Assembly (NCBI RefSeq): GCF_018531465.1
Contig: NZ_JAHDTF010000003.1
Coordinates: 1-64,000, forward strand
Reading direction: 5' to 3'
Source of the DNA: Sphaerisporangium fuscum
Lineage (GTDB): Bacteria; Actinomycetota; Actinomycetes; Streptosporangiales; Streptosporangiaceae
DNA: 64,000 bases
This document shows positions 45,330-55,081 of the stretch, one piece after another; positions within the stretch are counted from its first letter, which is position 1; every line of letters begins with the position of its first letter. The notes under the pieces are model-generated. The model ran no database searches, was not told the DNA's origin, and worked only from the letters and a program-made list of their open reading frames with translations. Made by a program: the position numbers and the translations under genes.

Positions 45330-46646
45330 TCAGGCGGCGGTCCCCTTGGCGGACTCCGCTGCGAGCAGCGCCGCGCCGAGCTGTACGGCGACCAGGGAGC
45401 GGAGCGGGATCGGCGTGCCCAGCGCTTCGGCTTCGGCCTCGGCGAACCACTCGTCGAAGCGCGCGCCGAGCCGGGCCCGTTCGGCGCGGATGGCGGGCGT
45501 CTGGTTGCCCGCGCCGAACTCGGCGTCCAGCATGCGCAGGCAGGTCCCGCAGTACCTCAGCCGCATGCTGTGCACGAGCTGCCGGTTGCCGACCACCTCG
45601 GCCACGGTTGCGGGCCGGTCGGTGCCGGGCAGGCCTTCCCACTCGCCGATGAACTCGTCGTAGGAGCGGACGAAGTCCTCAAGAGCGCGGCGGAAGGGAG
45701 ATCGGACGGTCAGGTCGGCGCTGACGGCGGCCAGGGATCGCGCCAGCTCGGCGATCAGGTCGCGTTGCGCCGCGAGGCCGGCACTGATCGATTCGCCGTA
45801 CTTCTGGCCGGTGGGAGACTGGTCGGCGACGCGGGGGTCGGCCCAGTAGGGCAGCTCGGTGACCAGGTGCAGGGCGCCGAAGCGGTCGGCGTAGTCGACG
45901 CTGCCGCCGCCGATGCCGTAGGTGGCGGCGAGCTTGGCGCCTCTCGGGGTCATGTAGGCGGCGGGACCGATCGGGACGGCGCTCGGCACCTCGGGCGGCC
46001 CCATGTGCAGGGGCAGGCCCTCGGCGGTCGCGATGGCGGCCAGGCGAGCGGCGAGCGCGGGGTCGTCCTTGCTGAGGTAGTAGAACGCGCCTTGGAGCTC
46101 GCCGTTGTGGAGGGAGTAGACGAAGGCGGGCCTGACCTCGTCCATCAGGCGCATCAGCGCCTCGGTCTCCGGCAGGGTGCGGTCAAAGAAGTAGTCCTCG
46201 CCGGTCAGCGGGAAGGTCCATTCGACCTGGTCGGCCTCGGCGGGACGGTAGAAGTGCTCTGCGTAGGCGCGGCGGTCGCTGGGCCGGGTGTACCAGCCCT
46301 CGTTGAGCCGGGCGCCGTCGGGGTCGACGCAGGGGATGAGGTGCCAGCGGTAGCCGAACCCCTCGCGCAGGCCGGCGTCCTCGACGAGCCGGCGCAGCAG
46401 CGCGCTGACGGTGAGCGCGCCGATGGGCTCGTTGGGGTGGGGGCCGCCGATGATCACGGCGTCGTGGGGGCCGGAGCCGATGGTCGCGACGCGCAGCGGC
46501 TCGCCGAGGCGCGAGGTGCCGATGCGGCGCAACCGTACGAGGTCGGGGTGGGCGGTGGCGAGGTCGTCGAGCTCGGCATGCATCTGGTCCACCGTGGGGA
46601 ACGCGGCGTAGTCGGGCACCCGGCTCATGTGGTGGGCGACGTCCAT
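45330..46646 (-). CDS. M14-family zinc carboxypeptidase
   Basis: The 438-residue metallopeptidase has zinc ligands His70 and Glu73 in GGPHPNEPIG and His180 in YSLHNGE. The catalytic Glu262 is in VTELPYW. The P-H-P-N-E and N-G-E spacing fits the M14 carboxypeptidase/AstE superfamily. No signal peptide is seen, so it would act inside the cell on imported peptides or acylated amino acids. ATG 46646 has GGAGG at 8 nt. It is divergent from a TetR gene, with an operator-like inverted repeat between them. Confidence 0.87.
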   Translation of the reverse strand: MDVAHHMSRVPDYAAFPTVDQMHAELDDLATAHPDLVRLRRIGTSRLGEPLRVATIGSGPHDAVIIGGPHPNEPIGALTVSALLRRLVEDAGLREGFGYRWHLIPCVDPDGARLNEGWYTRPSDRRAYAEHFYRPAEADQVEWTFPLTGEDYFFDRTLPETEALMRLMDEVRPAFVYSLHNGELQGAFYYLSKDDPALAARLAAIATAEGLPLHMGPPEVPSAVPIGPAAYMTPRGAKLAATYGIGGGSVDYADRFGALHLVTELPYWADPRVADQSPTGQKYGESISAGLAAQRDLIAELARSLAAVSADLTVRSPFRRALEDFVRSYDEFIGEWEGLPGTDRPATVAEVVGNRQLVHSMRLRYCGTCLRMLDAEFGAGNQTPAIRAERARLGARFDEWFAEAEAEALGTPIPLRSLVAVQLGAALLAAESAKGTAA

Positions 46647-46660
46647 CTTTCGGCCTCCTG

Positions 46661-46692
46661 ATAATCTGGATTATTCTAGTAAATCAGATTAT
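46661..46692. promoter_or_regulatory. TetR operator region ATAATCTG...CAGATTAT
   Basis: Perfect 8-bp arms (46661-46668 and 46685-46692) flank 16 bp. Within it TAATCTGGATTA (46662-46673) is itself a perfect palindrome. It lies between the M14 peptidase and tetR starts, and its AT-rich nature suggests it also contains both promoters. Confidence 0.65.
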
Positions 46693-46715
46693 TTTGACGG
46701 CATGCAGGAGATGTC

Positions 46716-47327
46716 ATGCGGCTGACCAGAGCCGAAAGCAAGGCGGCCAACAAGCGCGCGCTGATCGAGGCGGCACGCGAGGTCGTCGGCCGGGACGGGG
46801 CCAAGGCGAAGCTGGAGGACATCGCCGACCTGGCCGGTCTGACCACCGGCGCGATCTACTCGCTGTTCGGCGGCAAGAACGAGCTGATGGTCGCCATGGT
46901 CGACGACTACGTCGGGCCGCTCGACCTGCGTTCGGCCGAGGCCGCCGAGTTCGGCGTGCGGCTGGAAGAGGCCGTGGCCGAGGTCGCCCGCAGGTTCCTG
47001 CGCATCTCGGCCGACCCGCAGGCCACCGGGAAGCTGCTGTTCGAGGCCCGCGTGCTCGACCTCGTGCTCCACGACCCGGAGCTGCTCGGCAAGCTCAACG
47101 CCTCGATCAGATCGACCGAGGTCGAGCTCGCCGCGCTGTTCGCCGGCCGCGAGCACGAGGGAGCCGCTGTCACGGACAGACAGGCGCTGCGCCTGGCCCG
47201 CGCGCTGAAGGCCCTGCTGTCCGGGCTCGGACAGGGCGTCGTGCTCGGCGTGCACGACGCCTCCGAGGAGTTCTTCGTGGAGACCGCCCAGGCCCTGATC
47301 AGGCCGGCGGTGCTGGGCCCGGCCTAG
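46716..47327 (+). CDS. TetR-family repressor
   Basis: The 203-residue protein has an N-terminal HTH at about residues 14-58 (R-A-L-I-E-A-A-R-E-V-V, KLEDIADLAGLTTGAIYSLFGGKNELM) and a helical ligand domain. ATG 46716 has CAGGAG 5 nt upstream. It is the first gene of a plus-strand run (tetR, MFS, serine hydrolase) and is divergent from the M14 peptidase, both probably under its control. Confidence 0.87.
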   Translation: MRLTRAESKAANKRALIEAAREVVGRDGAKAKLEDIADLAGLTTGAIYSLFGGKNELMVAMVDDYVGPLDLRSAEAAEFGVRLEEAVAEVARRFLRISADPQATGKLLFEARVLDLVLHDPELLGKLNASIRSTEVELAALFAGREHEGAAVTDRQALRLARALKALLSGLGQGVVLGVHDASEEFFVETAQALIRPAVLGPA

Positions 47328-47393
47328 ATCACGGCCGAGGGTTCGGGGGGACCACGCGGCCACACGTCACCCCACCCCCAGAAAGGCACGACC

Positions 47394-48827
47394 ATGTCCA
47401 GATCCGGATTCGGCATCATCGGCGCGCCGGTGTTGTTCATCGGCGTACTCCAGACCATGGAGATGACACTCTCGCCGGCGCTCCCGCTCATCCAGCGGGA
47501 CCTGGCGGCCTCTCCGGGCGCGCTCGCCTGGATCTTCACCGGCTCGCTGATCAGCTCGGCGATCAGCACTCCCGTCGTCGGCCGCCTGGCCGACATGTAC
47601 GACAAACGCCGGCTGCTGCTCGCGCTGATGGCGATCGCCGGCGCCGGGGTCCTCCTCGCCGCCCTGGCGCCCAGCGTCACCCTGCTGATCGTGGGCATGG
47701 CGGTCGAAGGCGTCTGGCTGGGCATGCTGCCCCTGACCGTGGGGCTGTTCCGCGACACCCTCGAACCCGAACGGGCCGCCACCGGCAACGGCCTGGTCAT
47801 CGGCGTCGCCGCCCTGGCCAGCGCGCTCGGCCTCGTCCTCGCCGGGCCGATCAGCTCCGCGCTCGGCTACCGGTGGCTGTTCCTGCTGGCCGTGGCCGGT
47901 GCGGCGGTGGCCTGGCTGTGGGCCTGGTACGCGGTGCCGGTCACGCCTCACCAGAGCGCCGGACGCGTCGACTGGGCGGGCGGCCTGCTGCTCGGCGGCG
48001 GCCTCGCCCTGCTCATGCTGGGCCTGACCGCCGCCTCCGGCTGGGGCTGGACGGCTCCTGCCACCCTCGCCCTGTTCGCGGCCGCCGCGCTGACGCTGGG
48101 TTTGTGGACGGTCATCGAGCTGCGCGTCGACGACCCGCTGGTGGACCTGCGGCTGCTGGCCGGCCGCACCCCGGCCGGTGTGACGGCGATGGGCGTCGTG
48201 TTCGGCTTCGCCTCCTTCGGGCTCGTGGTCGCTCTGCCGATGATGCTGGCAGCGCCCGTCGAGACCGGGTACGGCCTGGGGGCGGACACCCTGTGGATCG
48301 GCATCTACATGTTCCCGATGGGCGTCGCGGGCACCGTGGTCGCGCCGCTGGTCGGACCGATGACCAGGCTGCTCGGGCGGCGTGCCGTGCTGGTGCTCGG
48401 CAGCGCGCTCGTCTGCGCCGGCACCGCCGAGCTCGCCCTGTGGCACTCCTCGCCGTGGCAGATCGTGGCCGGGGTGACGATCATGGGGCTGGGCGGCTCC
48501 ATCGGCCTCACCGCCGGGCTCAACGCCGTGGCCGGCGACGTGCCCGCGGGCCGGGCGGCCGGGGTCAGCGGCGTGGTCTTCGTCGCCAAGAGCATCGGCG
48601 GCACCTTCGGGGCGCAGCTCGGCGCCATGGTGCTGGCCTCCGGCGCGGTGGCCGGAGTGCCAACCGAGGGCGGCTTCGTGGACACCTACCTGCTGTCGGC
48701 GGCGCTCGGCCTGCTCGCCGTCGGCGCCGCCTTCGTGATCCCCTCCGCTGTGCGCGAGGCCCGAGGCGGAAGCGAAGCTTCGGTCCTGAGGACGAAGCCC
48801 GCCGTACAGTCCGGTGAAAGCCTGTGA
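47394..48827 (+). CDS. MFS transporter, DHA2 type
   Basis: The 477-residue protein has about 14 hydrophobic helices. The motif-A region (G-R-L-A-D-M-Y-D-K-R-R) lies between TM2 and TM3, and the TM5 region is rich in Gly/Ala (GNGLVIGVAALASALGLVLAGP). It would be a proton-driven exporter, or here perhaps a peptide/amino-acid carrier given its neighbours. The ATG follows a short gap after tetR (GAAAGG upstream). The stop overlaps an upstream GTG of the next frame. Confidence 0.87.
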   Translation: MSRSGFGIIGAPVLFIGVLQTMEMTLSPALPLIQRDLAASPGALAWIFTGSLISSAISTPVVGRLADMYDKRRLLLALMAIAGAGVLLAALAPSVTLLIVGMAVEGVWLGMLPLTVGLFRDTLEPERAATGNGLVIGVAALASALGLVLAGPISSALGYRWLFLLAVAGAAVAWLWAWYAVPVTPHQSAGRVDWAGGLLLGGGLALLMLGLTAASGWGWTAPATLALFAAAALTLGLWTVIELRVDDPLVDLRLLAGRTPAGVTAMGVVFGFASFGLVVALPMMLAAPVETGYGLGADTLWIGIYMFPMGVAGTVVAPLVGPMTRLLGRRAVLVLGSALVCAGTAELALWHSSPWQIVAGVTIMGLGGSIGLTAGLNAVAGDVPAGRAAGVSGVVFVAKSIGGTFGAQLGAMVLASGAVAGVPTEGGFVDTYLLSAALGLLAVGAAFVIPSAVREARGGSEASVLRTKPAVQSGESL

Positions 48828-48946
48828 CGGGTCGCCCCGGCGTGCCCGGCAGGCCTGCCTCCGGCCCGTACGCCAACCGGAGCGGGCGCAGGTTCGCCGC
48901 TGAGGCCGAACAGTTCGCGCACGAGGATCCCGATATTGGAGGACAC

Positions 48947-50506
48947 ATGGATCTTGAGCAGGTGGAACGCGTCCTCGGCGCCCTCACCGAGGTCCGCGAG
49001 GACACAGCGGGCCTGGCGGCCGGCGTCTACGCCGACGGTCAGGCGCTGCGCACCTCGGCCAGGGGCGTGGCCACGGTCGAGTTCGGCGTCCCTATCGACG
49101 CCCGCACCCGATTCGACATCGCCTCCATCAGCAAGCAGTTCACCGCCGCATGCCTGTCGCTGCTGGACCGGGACGGCAGGCTGAGCCTGTCGGACGACGT
49201 CCGGACCCACATCCCCGAGCTGCGACTCGAGGTGCCCGTCACGATCGACCAGTGCCTCCGGCACACCGGAGGCCTGCCGGAGTGGTACGGCCTCCAGGCC
49301 ATCACGGGCGTCCCCTTCCAGATGCTGGACGAGGAGCAGCTGATGAAGATCCTGACGGGCATCCGCAGGACCACGTTCGAGCCGGGCACCGAGTTCTCCT
49401 ACTCCAACACCGGCTACGTCCTGGCCGCCGTCGTGGTCAGGCGGGTCACCGGGCGGTCACTGGCCGAGTTCGCCCGCGACCGGATCTTCCACCCGCTCGG
49501 CATGCACGACACCGAGTTCCGCGACGACGCCTCCGTCCCGCTGCCCCGCATGGCCTACGGCTACACCGGCGCCGGCACCAGGGCCGACACCCAGGAGAGC
49601 GCGGTCGGCGACGGCGGCGTGGTGACCAGCGTCGCCGATCTCGCCCCCTGGTTCGGCTTCCTGGCCGACGGCCGTGTGCTTGGCGCCGACCTGCGCGAGA
49701 CACTGCTGGAGCGGACGGTGCTCGCCGACGGCTCCGTGCTGCCGTACGCGCGCGGGATCTGCCACATCGCGGTCGGAGAGCTGAGCGCCTACGGCCACGC
49801 GGGAGGCATGCACGGCTACGTCGGCAACCTGCTGTACCTGCCGGAGCCCGGCCTCGGCGTGGCCGTGCTGACCAACCAGAGCGCCCTGGACCCGGTCGGC
49901 ATCAGCCTGCGCCTGGCCCGCGCCCTCACCGGCCAGGCCCCGGAGACCCGGTCCGCCCTCGCCGGCGCGGCCGCGGGCGAATCGGCGAGGACCGCGCTGC
50001 TCGGGCACTGGCGTGATCCGGCGAGCGAGGCCACCTTCACCCTCGAACCCGGCGAGGACGGCGGACTCTCCATGACCGGCTCCCTCCACAACGCCGTGCT
50101 CGCGCTCGGCGCCGACGGCCGCTGGCACGGGCAGGGAGGCGCGGCAGGAGTCTGGCTCGCGCTGGAGGACGGGCGGCTGCTGCTGGGCCACGAAGGGTCG
50201 ATCCGGTGGCCGTCCGCCTTCGTTTCCTGCGACCCGCCAGGCGGGGACCCCATGCCGGAGGGCGTCTGGCTGAACGACGAGCTGGGCGTGCTCGCCGTCG
50301 TCCGGAAAGAGGTGCTGCGCGTCGGACTTACCCTCCAATGCCCCGTCGTGCCCGCGCCCGCGGGAACGTGGCGAGCGGGGCACTTCACCTTCCGCATCGA
50401 CGAGAACGGCGACCTGCTGCTCAGCGGCTTCGGCCTGCGCGGCATGCGCTTCGCCACCCAGCCCGAGGGCACCAAGGCCGTCGGCATCCCTCCTGGCCTG
50501 GTCTAG
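48947..50506 (+). CDS. Beta-lactamase/D-aminopeptidase-like serine hydrolase
   Basis: The 519-residue protein has the penicillin-binding fold with Ser60-Ile-Ser-Lys63 (F-D-I-A-S-I-S-K-Q-F), F-S-Y-S-N-T-G-Y for the Y-x-N motif, and H-A-G-G-M-H-G-Y for the third motif. Two C-terminal beta-barrel-like domains (about 365-519) recall D-aminopeptidase DAP and related D-stereospecific peptidases. ATG 48947 has GGAGGA 3 nt upstream. GTG 48824, overlapping the MFS stop, would add 41 unconvincing residues. No signal peptide is visible. The neighbourhood supports a D-peptide substrate. Confidence 0.85.
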   Translation: MDLEQVERVLGALTEVREDTAGLAAGVYADGQALRTSARGVATVEFGVPIDARTRFDIASISKQFTAACLSLLDRDGRLSLSDDVRTHIPELRLEVPVTIDQCLRHTGGLPEWYGLQAITGVPFQMLDEEQLMKILTGIRRTTFEPGTEFSYSNTGYVLAAVVVRRVTGRSLAEFARDRIFHPLGMHDTEFRDDASVPLPRMAYGYTGAGTRADTQESAVGDGGVVTSVADLAPWFGFLADGRVLGADLRETLLERTVLADGSVLPYARGICHIAVGELSAYGHAGGMHGYVGNLLYLPEPGLGVAVLTNQSALDPVGISLRLARALTGQAPETRSALAGAAAGESARTALLGHWRDPASEATFTLEPGEDGGLSMTGSLHNAVLALGADGRWHGQGGAAGVWLALEDGRLLLGHEGSIRWPSAFVSCDPPGGDPMPEGVWLNDELGVLAVVRKEVLRVGLTLQCPVVPAPAGTWRAGHFTFRIDENGDLLLSGFGLRGMRFATQPEGTKAVGIPPGLV

Positions 50507-50569
50507 AACGTCAGTGAACCCGGCTTCCAGCGTCCGGCCATCCCCCCGACCGTTCTTCGAGGTGGTTCC

Positions 50570-50686
50570 ATGAAATCGGCGACCGTGCCCGCCGAGCCCG
50601 CGACGAGCGCGCTGCTCCTCGACGGCGGCGGGCACGGAAACCTGCTACGCCGGGAAGAAGGACGCCAGCCGAGGGACGCCGCGTGA
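50570..50686 (+). CDS. Short leader ORF coupled to pucR
   Basis: The 38-codon frame starts at ATG 50570 with GAGGTGG 5 nt upstream. It encodes MKSATVPAEPATSALLLDGG and then a basic tail. Its TGA overlaps the pucR GTG (GTGA), so its translation would feed into pucR. It resembles no known domain. It may be a leader peptide or simply a translational coupling device. The frame has no rare-codon run that I can see. Confidence 0.45.
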   Translation: MKSATVPAEPATSALLLDGGGHGNLLRREEGRQPRDAA

Positions 50687-52272
50687 GCGCACGGGGCCGG
50701 GTGGCGCTCGGCGTGCTGCTCGACAGCCTCGGCGAGAAGACGGTGTCCGCGCTGTGCCTGCCCTCCGGCCGCCAGGCCATGGTGGGCGCGCCCGTCATCT
50801 ACGGCTCGGACGAGCCCATGAGCGATTTCGACGGAGCGCTGCTGCTGGCCACCGGCACGCCGGAGGCGTCCCTGCTGGAACGCATGGCCGAGGCGGGCGC
50901 CACCGCGGTCGTGGTGCGAGCCGGCCTCGGCGACGCCGCCGAGCTGACCGCGGCGGCGAAGGGCGCGGGTGTGGCCCTGCTGGCCGCCGCGCCCGGGCTG
51001 TCGTGGGGGCAGCTGTACGCGCTGGTCGACGCCCTGCTCGCGCTCGTCGCCCCGGCGGCCGACCTGGGCGGCGGCGTCCAGGCGGGCGACCTGTTCGCGC
51101 TGGCCAACCAGGTCGCCGCCCGCGTCGGCGGCGCCGTGGCCATCGAGGACCTCGCCATGCGCGTGCTGGCCTACTCCACCATCGGCGGCCAGCGCATCGA
51201 CGAACTGCGCAGGGAGGGCATTCTCGGCAGGCGCGTCCCCGAGCACCCGACGCACGCCGAGGAGTACTCGGCCGTCCTGCGCTCGGACGAGGCGGTCTGG
51301 AGCTTCGAGCCCCGCGAGTACCTGCCGAGACTCGCCATCGCGGTACGCGCCGGCGGGGAGGCGCTCGGCACGATCTGGGCCATCCAGGCCGACGAGCCGC
51401 TCGCCTCGGACGCCGCCACCGTGCTCGCCGAGGCGGCCATCACCGCCGCCCCGCACCTGGCACGCATCAGCCTGGCCGCCGACGAGGCCCGCAGGACCAG
51501 GAACGAGTGGCTGGGCCGGCTCCTGCGAGGCGCCGGCCCCGTCGACGAGCCGGCCGCCTTCTTCGGCCTGCATCCGAAGGAGGCGGTCGCGGTCGTGGCG
51601 GTCGGCACCAGGGAAGCCAGGACACGCGGCGACGTCTTCGCCGCCACCCACGCCGGAGACCTCCTGCGCACCGCCTACGCCGCCTACCGGGTCAGGGCCG
51701 CCGTCGGCGCGGTGGACGGCAGGACCTACGCCGTCGTGGCCACCGGCACCGGGACACCGCTACTGCGACGCATCACCGCCGACACCCTCGGCCAGATCAC
51801 CCACCGCCTCGGCGGCCAATGGCGGGCCGGCATCGGCCGGACCGCGGCCTCGATCGCGCAGGTCCCGGTCAGCGCCAGGCAGGCCGACGAGGCCCTGCGG
51901 GCGATGTGCGGGCCGTTCGCGGGCGGCGGGGTGGGCCTGCACGAGGAGCTGGCGGCGGCGCTGTTCCTGATGGACGCGGCGGCCTCGATGCGGTCCGGCG
52001 GGACGCTGACGGGCGAGCCGCTGTCCCTGGTGGCCGAGCACGACGCCAGGCACGGCACCGACTACGTGCACAGCCTGCGCGTCTGGCTGGCCGCCCACTA
52101 CGACGTGCCGCGGGCGGCCGAGACGCTGTCGCTGCACCCCAACACGCTCCGGTACCGGCTGCGTCGCATCGGTGAGCTGATCCCGCTCGACGACCCCGAC
52201 GTCCGGCTCGTCCTCGGTCTCCAGCTCCGGCTGGGCGAGATCCGGGCGTCCGGCACAAACAACGGCGAGTGA
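50683..52272 (+). CDS. PucR-family transcriptional regulator
   Basis: The 529-residue protein has an N-terminal PucR sensor domain (about 1-130: GALLLATGTPEASLLERMAEAGATAVVVR). A middle GGDEF-like/GAF-type region follows at about 140-330 (AIEDLAMRVLAYSTIGGQRIDELRREGILGR). The C-terminal PucR HTH is at about 455-520 (L-R-V-W-L-A-A-H-Y-D-V-P-R-A-A-E-T-L-S-L-H-P-N-T-L-R-Y-R-L-R-R-I). PucR proteins control purine, amino-acid or D-amino-acid catabolism. GTG 50683 overlaps the leader ORF stop. It precedes the GNAT and racemase genes by 42 bp, so it probably activates them. Confidence 0.9.
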   Translation: MSARGRVALGVLLDSLGEKTVSALCLPSGRQAMVGAPVIYGSDEPMSDFDGALLLATGTPEASLLERMAEAGATAVVVRAGLGDAAELTAAAKGAGVALLAAAPGLSWGQLYALVDALLALVAPAADLGGGVQAGDLFALANQVAARVGGAVAIEDLAMRVLAYSTIGGQRIDELRREGILGRRVPEHPTHAEEYSAVLRSDEAVWSFEPREYLPRLAIAVRAGGEALGTIWAIQADEPLASDAATVLAEAAITAAPHLARISLAADEARRTRNEWLGRLLRGAGPVDEPAAFFGLHPKEAVAVVAVGTREARTRGDVFAATHAGDLLRTAYAAYRVRAAVGAVDGRTYAVVATGTGTPLLRRITADTLGQITHRLGGQWRAGIGRTAASIAQVPVSARQADEALRAMCGPFAGGGVGLHEELAAALFLMDAAASMRSGGTLTGEPLSLVAEHDARHGTDYVHSLRVWLAAHYDVPRAAETLSLHPNTLRYRLRRIGELIPLDDPDVRLVLGLQLRLGEIRASGTNNGE

Positions 52273-52314
52273 AGTTCGGCTTGCACGCCAACGCCCCGGC
52301 GACGGTCCGGCGGA

Positions 52315-53079
52315 ATGCTGGTGCGCATGGTCGAACTTCGCATCCTCCACGGCACCTCCCAGTTCCAGGCCGCCGACCGGCTGCTGCGCCGCATCTGGAA
52401 CACCAGGGCGGGCGACGATCCGCCGGTGCCCGTGGACCTCATGTGCGCCCTTGACCACGCCGGCGGCTACGTCGGCGGCGCCTTCATCGACGGCGAGCTC
52501 GTCGCCGCCGCCTCCGGGTTCCTCGCGGAGGGAGGCAGCCTGCACTCCCACATCGTGGGCGTGGCCGCCGAGGCGCGGGGCAAGGGGATCGGCCAGGCGA
52601 TAAAGGCCCACCAGCGCCAGTGGGCCGCCGAGCGCGGCCTGAACTTCATCTCCTGGACCTTCGACCCCCTGGTGCGCCGCAACGCCTTCTTCAACCTGGC
52701 CAGGCTCGGCGCCCGCGCCGAGCGGTACGTGCCCGACTTCTACGGCCCGATGAACGACGGCATCAACGGCGGGGACGCCACCGACCGGCTGCTCGCGTAC
52801 TGGCCCGTGCACCCGGCCCCGGAGGCGTTCGCTCCGGACCGGAGCGCGGAGGCGGAGGTGATCCTCGACGAGAGCGGGACGCCGCGCGAGCCGGGCGGCG
52901 CGGCCGTGCTGCGCTGCGCCACGCCCGCCGACGCCGAGCGGCTGCGGCGCGAACACCCCGAGGAGGCCGCGCGGTGGCGGGCCGCCCAGCGGGCCGCCCT
53001 GGGGGGCGCGCTGGCCCGCGGTTACCGGATCGCCGCCTTCACCAGGGACGGCTGGTACGTGCTGGAGCGCGCGGCATGA
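52315..53079 (+). CDS. GNAT acyltransferase linked to OSBS/NAAAR (COG3375-like)
   Basis: The 254-residue protein (ATG 52315, or 52327 as Met5) has a GNAT core: YVGGAFIDGELVAAASGFL, then HSHIVGVAAEARGKGIGQAIKAHQRQWA with the R-x-x-G-x-G CoA loop, and WTFDPLVRRNAFFNLARLGA. A C-terminal extension follows. This subgroup is repeatedly found beside menC-type enolase-superfamily genes. In Geobacillus the partner was shown to succinylate D-amino acids for an N-succinylamino-acid racemase. The stop overlaps the racemase start by 4 nt (ATGA), so the two are made together. Confidence 0.82.
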   Translation: MLVRMVELRILHGTSQFQAADRLLRRIWNTRAGDDPPVPVDLMCALDHAGGYVGGAFIDGELVAAASGFLAEGGSLHSHIVGVAAEARGKGIGQAIKAHQRQWAAERGLNFISWTFDPLVRRNAFFNLARLGARAERYVPDFYGPMNDGINGGDATDRLLAYWPVHPAPEAFAPDRSAEAEVILDESGTPREPGGAAVLRCATPADAERLRREHPEEAARWRAAQRAALGGALARGYRIAAFTRDGWYVLERAA

Positions 53080-54197
53080 GAATCGTCGAAGCCGAACTGC
53101 GCACGGTCGCGCTGCCGCTGCTCACGCCGTTCCGTACCTCGCTCGGCACGCAGACCGAGCGCAGGGCGCTGCTGGTGCGCGTACGCGGCGCCGAGGGCGA
53201 GGAGGGCTGGGGCGAGTGCGTCGCCGAGGACGAGCCCACCTACAGCCCGGAGTACCTGGAAGGGGCGGCCGACGTCATCCGGCGCTTCCTGCTGCCGCGC
53301 CTGTTCGCCGTGCCCGACCTCGATCCGGCCGGGGTGGCGCCCGCGCTCGCGCACCTGCGCGGTCATCCGATGGCCAAGGCCGCCGTAGAGATGGCCGTCC
53401 TGGACGCCGTGCTCACCGCGCGCGGCCTCCCGCTGGCCGCCTACCTGGGCGGGACACGCCGCAGCGTCCGCGTGGGTGTGTCGGTGGGCATCGCCACGGG
53501 CCTCGACGCCCTGCTCGACACCGTCGACCGGCACGTCAGCGCCGGCTACGCCCGGATCAAGCTCAAGATCGAGCCCGGCTGGGACCTGGAACCGGTCAGG
53601 CTGGTGCGCGAGACGTTCGGCGCCGGCCTCATGCTGACCGCCGACGCCAACACCGCCTACGCCCCCGCCGACGCCCGCCACCTGGCCCGCCTCGACGCCT
53701 ACGGCCTGACCCTGCTCGAACAGCCCTTCGCCCCGGACGACCTGCACGGTCACGCCGAGCTCGCCGCCCGGATGGACACGCCGATCTGCCTGGACGAGTC
53801 GATCATCTCGGCCCGCGCCGCCACCGCCGCGATCAGGGCGCGGGCCTGCTCGGTCATCAACATCAAGCCCGGCAGGGTCGGCGGCTACCTGGAGGCCCGC
53901 CGCATCCACGACCTGGCCCGGGCCGCCGACGTGCCGGTGTGGTGCGGCGGCATGCTGGAGATCGGGCTCGGCCGGGCGGCGAACCTGGCGCTGGCCGCCC
54001 TGCCCGGCTTCACCCTGCCCGGCGACATCTCGGCGACCGCCCGCTACTACGAGCGCGACATCACCGCACCCGTCGAACTCGAGGGCGACTCCATCGCGGT
54101 GCCCGAGGGGCCGGGAATCGGCGTCGTGCCGGAGCCGGACGCCCTGGAGACCTTCACCGCCGGCCCGCCCGTGCGCGTCACGAACGATTGCCGCTGA
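53076..54197 (+). CDS. menC: o-Succinylbenzoate synthase / N-succinylamino acid racemase (enolase superfamily)
   Basis: The 373-residue protein has the enolase-superfamily capping domain (LLTPFRTSLG; WGECVAEDEPTYSPEY) and barrel. Catalytic Lys162 and Lys164 are in R-I-K-L-K-I-E, and the general base Lys264 is in INIKPGRVGG. Metal ligands are Asp190, Glu215 and Asp240 (T-A-D-A-N, L-L-E-Q-P, C-L-D-E-S). The MenC-II/NAAAR group catalyses OSB formation for menaquinone, N-acylamino-acid racemisation, or both. The coupled GNAT gene favours the racemase role, but an MenJ-like gene at 55191 keeps menaquinone open. Confidence 0.87.
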   Translation: MRIVEAELRTVALPLLTPFRTSLGTQTERRALLVRVRGAEGEEGWGECVAEDEPTYSPEYLEGAADVIRRFLLPRLFAVPDLDPAGVAPALAHLRGHPMAKAAVEMAVLDAVLTARGLPLAAYLGGTRRSVRVGVSVGIATGLDALLDTVDRHVSAGYARIKLKIEPGWDLEPVRLVRETFGAGLMLTADANTAYAPADARHLARLDAYGLTLLEQPFAPDDLHGHAELAARMDTPICLDESIISARAATAAIRARACSVINIKPGRVGGYLEARRIHDLARAADVPVWCGGMLEIGLGRAANLALAALPGFTLPGDISATARYYERDITAPVELEGDSIAVPEGPGIGVVPEPDALETFTAGPPVRVTNDCR

Positions 54198-54334: not shown

Positions 54335-55081
54335 ATGGATGAGGTCGAAATGGTCGTCGCCCATTCCGAGCGCGCGACCCTGCGCGTCGGCGACGTGTTC
54401 CTGAAGGTGGACGCCGATCAGGCGCGCATCGACGCCGAGGTCGAGGCGATGGCCCTGGCGCCGGTCCCGACCCCGAAGGTCCTGTGGCACAAGCCGCCGG
54501 TGCTCGCGATCGCCGCGGTCCCGGGGACGGCGCTCGGCCGCCTCGGCGAGCCGTCGACCGCGTCCCCGGCGGCGTGGGCCGCGGCGGGCGCCGCCGTCCG
54601 GCGGTTGCACGACGCGCCGTTGCCGCCCCGGCCCGGCCGGGCCGGGCGAGGCATCGACGAGCTGGCGGCGGAACTCGACGGCGAGTGCGAGTGGCTCGTG
54701 ACGAACGGCGTCCTGCCCGCCGACCTGGTCACCCGCAACCGCCAGGTCGCCGAGGCCGCGCTGCGGCCCTGGAGTCCGGCGTTCACGCACGGCGACCTGC
54801 AGATCGCTCACGTGTTCGTCGACGGCGACGAGATCACGGGCATCATCGACTGGTCCGAGGCGGGCCAAGGTGATGCCCTGTTCGACCTCGCCACCTTGAC
54901 GCTCGGACACGAGAGGCATCTCGACGACGTCGTCGCCGGCTATGGCACCGACGTCGACCTCGACGTGATCCGCGCGTGGTGGTCGCTGCGAAGCCTGCTG
55001 GTGGTGCGCTGGCTGGTCGAGCACGGCTTCGACCCGTTCGCGCCGGGCTGTGAGGTCGATGTGCTGAGATCCCGGATGTGA
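54335..55081 (+). CDS. Aminoglycoside phosphotransferase-family protein
   Basis: The 248-residue small APH-fold kinase has an N-lobe with TLRVGDVFLKVD. The Brenner motif is F-T-H-G-D-L-Q-I-A-H-V-F, with His in place of the usual Asn, and the metal motif is GIIDWSEAGQGDALFDLA. Substrate and resistance role are unknown. The His substitution is found in some family members. It has a clear ATG but a weak RBS. It follows the racemase gene after 137 bp. Confidence 0.82.
   Translation: MDEVEMVVAHSERATLRVGDVFLKVDADQARIDAEVEAMALAPVPTPKVLWHKPPVLAIAAVPGTALGRLGEPSTASPAAWAAAGAAVRRLHDAPLPPRPGRAGRGIDELAAELDGECEWLVTNGVLPADLVTRNRQVAEAALRPWSPAFTHGDLQIAHVFVDGDEITGIIDWSEAGQGDALFDLATLTLGHERHLDDVVAGYGTDVDLDVIRAWWSLRSLLVVRWLVEHGFDPFAPGCEVDVLRSRM

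Follow-up and report, generated by a model that had tools for sequence, protein, structure and literature searches.

Gene content of the locus

Between positions 45330 and 54197 of the window, by which we mean the whole stretch of 64,000 nucleotides analysed here, lies a cluster of seven genes. The first, on the reverse strand, encodes a 438-residue protein of the M14 zinc carboxypeptidase family (45330..46646; PF00246, 52.8 bits). The forward strand carries a divergent TetR regulator (46716..47327; PF00440), which travels with M14 and MFS genes, an MFS transporter of the DHA2/EmrB-like type (47394..48827; PF07690), an S12 serine hydrolase resembling D-aminopeptidases (48947..50506, within a frame open from 48824; PF00144, 191.8 bits), a PucR/CdaR-type regulator (50683..52272; PF13556 and PF17853), a GNAT N-acyltransferase that is a candidate D-amino-acid N-succinyltransferase (52315..53079; PF00583) and an enolase-superfamily racemase of the NSAR/OSBS subfamily, a candidate N-succinylamino-acid racemase (53076..54197; TIGR01928). 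The stop codon of the GNAT gene and the start codon of the racemase gene share the letters ATGA. All seven genes and this overlap, as listed in an earlier sequence-only reading, could be placed, with curated-family matches. The cluster is no chance neighbourhood, since PucR is kept in 14 and the racemase in 15 of 16 related loci (hereafter window-type loci). An APH-family phosphotransferase gene at 54335-55081, directly 3′ of the racemase, is not conserved in these loci and probably stands outside the module.

Both hydrolases carry motifs that are compatible with active enzymes, namely HPNE at 70, SLH at 178 and TELP at 263 in the M14 protein, and SxxK, YxN and HxG in the S12 protein. For the latter, the start at 48947 is likelier than that at 48824, as homology to its relatives begins there. 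It matches the S12 D-aminopeptidase DAP (PDB 1ei5, E 6.6e-27), which it resembles in size and in all three motifs, but its best NCBIfam match, D-aminopeptidase PRK13128, reaches 133 bits and falls short of the cut-off of 443. The M14 protein had been put forward as a possible deacylase, by way of the superfamily that includes succinylglutamate desuccinylase. It gave no match to the AstE/AspA family, PF00246 (Peptidase_M14) alone being reported and the best NCBIfam match, MpaA, lying below its cut-off; these family matches rule out a succinylglutamate desuccinylase, and the gene is moreover missing from 10 of the 16 related loci. Trimming of peptides is a likelier role for it than deacylation.

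Homologues of the M14 protein with at least 80% identity occur in seven genomes including that of the window, every one of which has a window-type racemase. They lie near this racemase in six loci of differing arrangement: M14 is 5′ of the module in the window and in Nonomuraea montanisoli (G140), 5′ in G138 as well, where it adjoins a decaying copy, 3′ of the module and convergent in G106 and N. dietziae, and next to the racemase in Streptosporangium carneum, while the G077 contig breaks off too early for linkage to be assessed. Homologues of lower identity (44-66%) sit in other contexts, where examined. Proximity to the racemase in six loci of such varied arrangement marks M14 as linked yet optional.

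The M14 and S12 hydrolases, acylation by the GNAT and efflux of the DHA2 type could also be combined into a detoxification island, by which peptide antibiotics with D-residues would be inactivated and expelled. MFS and TetR genes do look like drug-efflux pairs, and S12 is a family with the beta-lactamase fold. However, such an island would need neither a racemase nor peptide importers, and among the 16 window-type loci M14 is missing from 10 and MFS from 11 while PucR and NSAR are retained, so that we regard this explanation as quite unlikely. The suggestion that the MFS protein takes up peptides was likewise not borne out, its family matches being to DHA2 efflux proteins (TIGR00711, 125.6 bits, below the cut-off of 230.2).

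A larger island in related genomes

The N. montanisoli locus contains considerably more genes than that of the window. M14, pointing leftward, is followed rightward by TetR, MFS, M55, S12, SBP, two permeases, ATPase, D-aminoacylase, PucR and GNAT, and then by NSAR. The importer in these relatives is of the dipeptide ABC type, their M55 protein (PF04951) matches DppA (PDB 1hi9), and their D-aminoacylase homologue matches PDB 1rjp/1m7j (E 4e-79). Over the common genes the window and N. montanisoli share 83-91% DNA identity; compared with the latter, MFS leads straight to S12 in the window, and S12 straight to PucR, and neither importer, M55 nor L-deacylase was found at its locus. The core of the D-peptide salvage reading is well borne out by comparison; drawn from the window alone, it lacked the larger island with its ABC importer, M55 and D-aminoacylase, as well as an M20 deacylase-family enzyme beside a second GNAT-NSAR pair of the genome. 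A literature search, with most subscription papers outside its reach, found no report of this island.

Immediately 5′ of PucR, where the D-aminoacylase gene of the relatives ends, the window retains on the forward strand a probable remnant of the C-terminus of this enzyme (50624..50653), a ten-residue match (GGGHGNLLRR vs GGRHGRLLRR) whose local alignment was reached by 4 of 5000 shuffles and which suggests that the D-aminoacylase gene was deleted from the window copy. Between MFS and S12, a search for a remnant of M55 gave nothing in the protein frames (shuffle fractions 0.27-0.61) and only a weak match at the DNA level (0.023), too little to claim one. Judged by sequence comparison, the window retains a cut-down version of a larger D-peptide utilisation island.

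Other pieces are found elsewhere in the same genome. On contig C28 a dipeptide ABC importer and a D-aminoacylase are encoded intact (L246 7865-16050), with 95-98% protein and 96.5% DNA identity to N. montanisoli, flanked on one side by the final portion of S12 and on the other by the 54 N-terminal residues of PucR. We read this segment as another part of the island, with its order scrambled, which may owe its presence to rearrangement, to another transfer or to contamination; tetranucleotide profiles do not set C28 apart, though they are not decisive. The piece is followed by DNA of a trypsin-family gene, which in N. montanisoli flanks M14. An M55 homologue (60%) is encoded elsewhere on C23, the contig of the window.

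Acyltransferase, racemase and the menaquinone question

The predicted structure of the GNAT protein shows a confident GNAT fold (mean pLDDT 93.6); a fold search returned generic small-molecule acetyltransferases and was uninformative as to the substrate. Coupling of this gene to the racemase is seen in the overlap within the window and in the exact co-occurrence of the two families in genomes holding menC. Our survey covered 150 genomes of the order, of which 113 have a dedicated menC, 74 a member of the NSAR/OSBS family and 70 the GNAT. Among the 113, GNAT and NSAR family are both present in 38 and both missing in 75, with no discordant genome (Fisher P 6e-31, a value that ignores kinship between genomes). 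This amounts to an order-wide natural experiment: genomes that keep menC carry the NSAR/OSBS family only together with the GNAT, a pattern that separates the racemase from the menaquinone role within a promiscuous enzyme family.

The surroundings of the pair are recurrent as well. Gene calls repeatedly show GNAT-NSAR in the company of S12 hydrolases, ABC transporters of the dipeptide type, PucR regulators, enzymes of the M20 deacylase family and M19 dipeptidases. Among 67 GNAT loci with long flanks, picked by GNAT homology and including related species that are not independent, the neighbours are NSAR (54), S12 (46), peptide SBP (45), PucR (45), M20 (33), M19 (19) and D-aminoacylase (17), the background set behind these frequencies being small and non-random; at least one peptidase, deacylase or peptide SBP (peptide-binding protein) lies nearby in 62. 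These neighbours, along with the co-occurrence in menC-owning genomes, support the earlier proposal, in which GNAT and NSAR are paired in the context of D-peptides. Farther afield, Deinococcus radiodurans has a GNAT 40% identical to that of the window three genes from a menC/NSAR gene, and similar gene sets on Streptomyces and Arthrobacter plasmids have the racemase labelled menC. Racemases of the NSAR/OSBS family bear such labels in public records, and routine annotation would misread that of the window as a vitamin-K-pathway enzyme. Two further arrangements were observed. A short gene with a partial match to the AtuA family (PF07287; L117 10318-10923) often lies directly 5′ of GNAT or NSAR, and genes like it, encoding about 181-201 residues, stand beside GNAT or NSAR in Nonomuraea loci. 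In the loci L170, L176, L178, L185, L187 and L194, the GNAT is accompanied mostly by M19 dipeptidase and M20 and has no adjoining NSAR; a transporter of the Nramp family comes next.

Along its full length, the racemase aligns with the Amycolatopsis NSAR/OSBS (PDB 1SJA, 4A6G; 436 bits and 58% identity to 1SJA). In the numbering of that enzyme it conserves both catalytic lysines (K163 and K263), the metal ligands D189, E214 and D239, and R266. Close Amycolatopsis homologues are also found in GNAT-NSAR-PucR loci, most of them with M20. However, in a tree of 129 sequences built by a quick method, the window racemase belongs to a 15-member clade (support 100) that is separate both from the Amycolatopsis enzymes and from the group of a second copy on contig C26 of the same genome; within this set the clade is limited to genomes of the window's own family, its named members being Streptosporangiaceae. 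Position 23 is L in all 14 intact window-type racemases and F in nearly all others, while position 50 is E or D in the same 14 and mostly M elsewhere; we take both positions to line the side-chain pocket. The decaying copy in G138 (L100 10276-13587) has M14, TetR and racemase left, with the GNAT broken by stop codons, and its racemase has E in place of the catalytic K163.

The racemase gene might alternatively be the menC of the genome, encoding an OSB synthase for menaquinone, alone or as a bifunctional OSBS/NSAR, with the peptidase genes as incidental neighbours. TIGR01928 is indeed an OSB-synthase model, and the racemase exceeds its curated menC threshold (290 bits, cut-off 200.65). In addition, the genome has menD, with menB- and menE-like genes beside it (judged by eye), while no menC was found beside menD, no actinobacterial menC anywhere in the genome and no MqnC over the cut-off. 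The futalosine route was set aside, since no MqnC match reached the cut-off and the matching frames, about 870 codons long, resemble F420 synthase, which they presumably encode. Hence some NSAR/OSBS-family gene of this genome probably makes OSB. Of the 37 genomes that lack a dedicated menC, 36 possess the family, which indicates that some of its members probably serve as OSBS; in G127, searches turned up neither of the two.

The window racemase is, however, not the sole candidate for this task. The sequence-only reading had made itself depend on whether the genome holds another menC, and a second NSAR/OSBS-family gene was found on C26, with a higher TIGR01928 score (330 bits) and grouping with copies from menC-less genomes. 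Another candidate is present in all seven window-type genomes surveyed, as a dedicated menC in G119, G138 and G140 and as a second family gene in G000, G077, G106 and G122. The window's assembly is rated 6.95% contaminated, so that C26 and C28 could derive from a different organism; G106, assembled into two contigs with 1% contamination, answers this worry, since it independently repeats the key point in having a second family gene. The locus and menD lie on different contigs, and the racemase is coupled to the GNAT. A menaquinone role for the window racemase thus appears unlikely to us.

Deacylation, the proposed pathway and known systems

We consider it likely, from gene content and comparison with relatives, that the locus is a D-amino-acid salvage module, probably under PucR control, which has been left over from a fuller island for the utilisation of D-peptides. 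Peptides with D-residues would enter through the linked dipeptide ABC importer in relatives, and here perhaps through the copy on C28. D-amino acids would be freed from them by the S12 hydrolase, to which the M14 enzyme may contribute, the GNAT would N-acylate these, most likely from succinyl-CoA, and the racemase would interconvert the N-acyl-D and N-acyl-L forms, from which an L-specific deacylase would release the L-amino acid. If the island works in this manner, soil actinobacteria would have in it a compact means to eat peptides with D-residues, e.g., cell-wall debris. There are precedents: a GNAT forming N-succinyl-D-amino acids was described together with NSAR by Sakai et al. (2006), as reported in PMC8762209, and Geobacillus NSAR combined with an L-succinylase yields L-amino acids in vitro (PMC7431475).

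Deacylation is the weakest part of this scheme. No L-specific N-succinyl-amino-acid deacylase was found at the window locus, and M20 is encoded in 0 of 16 window-type loci vs 57 of 94 other GNAT-NSAR loci, so that the last step may differ in the former. In the window's genome an M20 gene is instead found on C26, ahead of the second GNAT-NSAR pair, and its product, which would act in trans, is the best candidate deacylase, better than the M14 enzyme. A D-aminoacylase homologue, absent from the window copy, is encoded in 11 of the 16 window-type loci. These might therefore form a module with a D-specific deacylase, in which N-acyl-amino acids are racemised and freed as D-amino acids, or in which N-acyl-D-amino acids are the food; in vitro, NSAR with a D-succinylase does yield D-amino acids (PMC7431475). 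Yet the neighbours (importer, D-aminopeptidases) are catabolic, the gene is absent from the very copy in the window, and the D-aminoacylase may instead feed free D-amino acids to the GNAT, all of which makes a D-specific release very improbable in our view. Somewhat less doubtful, if still improbable, is that the window-type loci represent a distinct branch, with a racemase acting on other side chains (F23L, M50E/D), the D-aminoacylase homologue replacing the M20 L-deacylase, and a substrate range or net direction unlike that of Geobacillus.

Returning to the salvage pathway that we favour, its parts can be set beside two known systems. In the Bacillus subtilis dpp operon the D-aminopeptidase DppA is encoded with a dipeptide ABC transporter, and M55 and dipeptide importer are likewise together in the island of the relatives; both are absent from the window copy, and the island adds the stereo-inversion by GNAT and NSAR. 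The second system is the route of Geobacillus kaustophilus, reportedly the organism of the 2006 description, whose operon is said to comprise GNAT, N-succinylamino-acid racemase and L-succinylase. The window likewise has a GNAT adjoining an NSAR/OSBS-subfamily racemase, and a deacylase-family enzyme (M20) accompanies the second copy in its genome. In contrast, the window locus is without a deacylase and has PucR, the S12 hydrolase and the M14-TetR-MFS genes in addition, to which its relatives further add the ABC importer, M55 and D-aminoacylase. With the same core but no local deacylase, the locus would thus be a variant of the GNAT-NSAR pathway.
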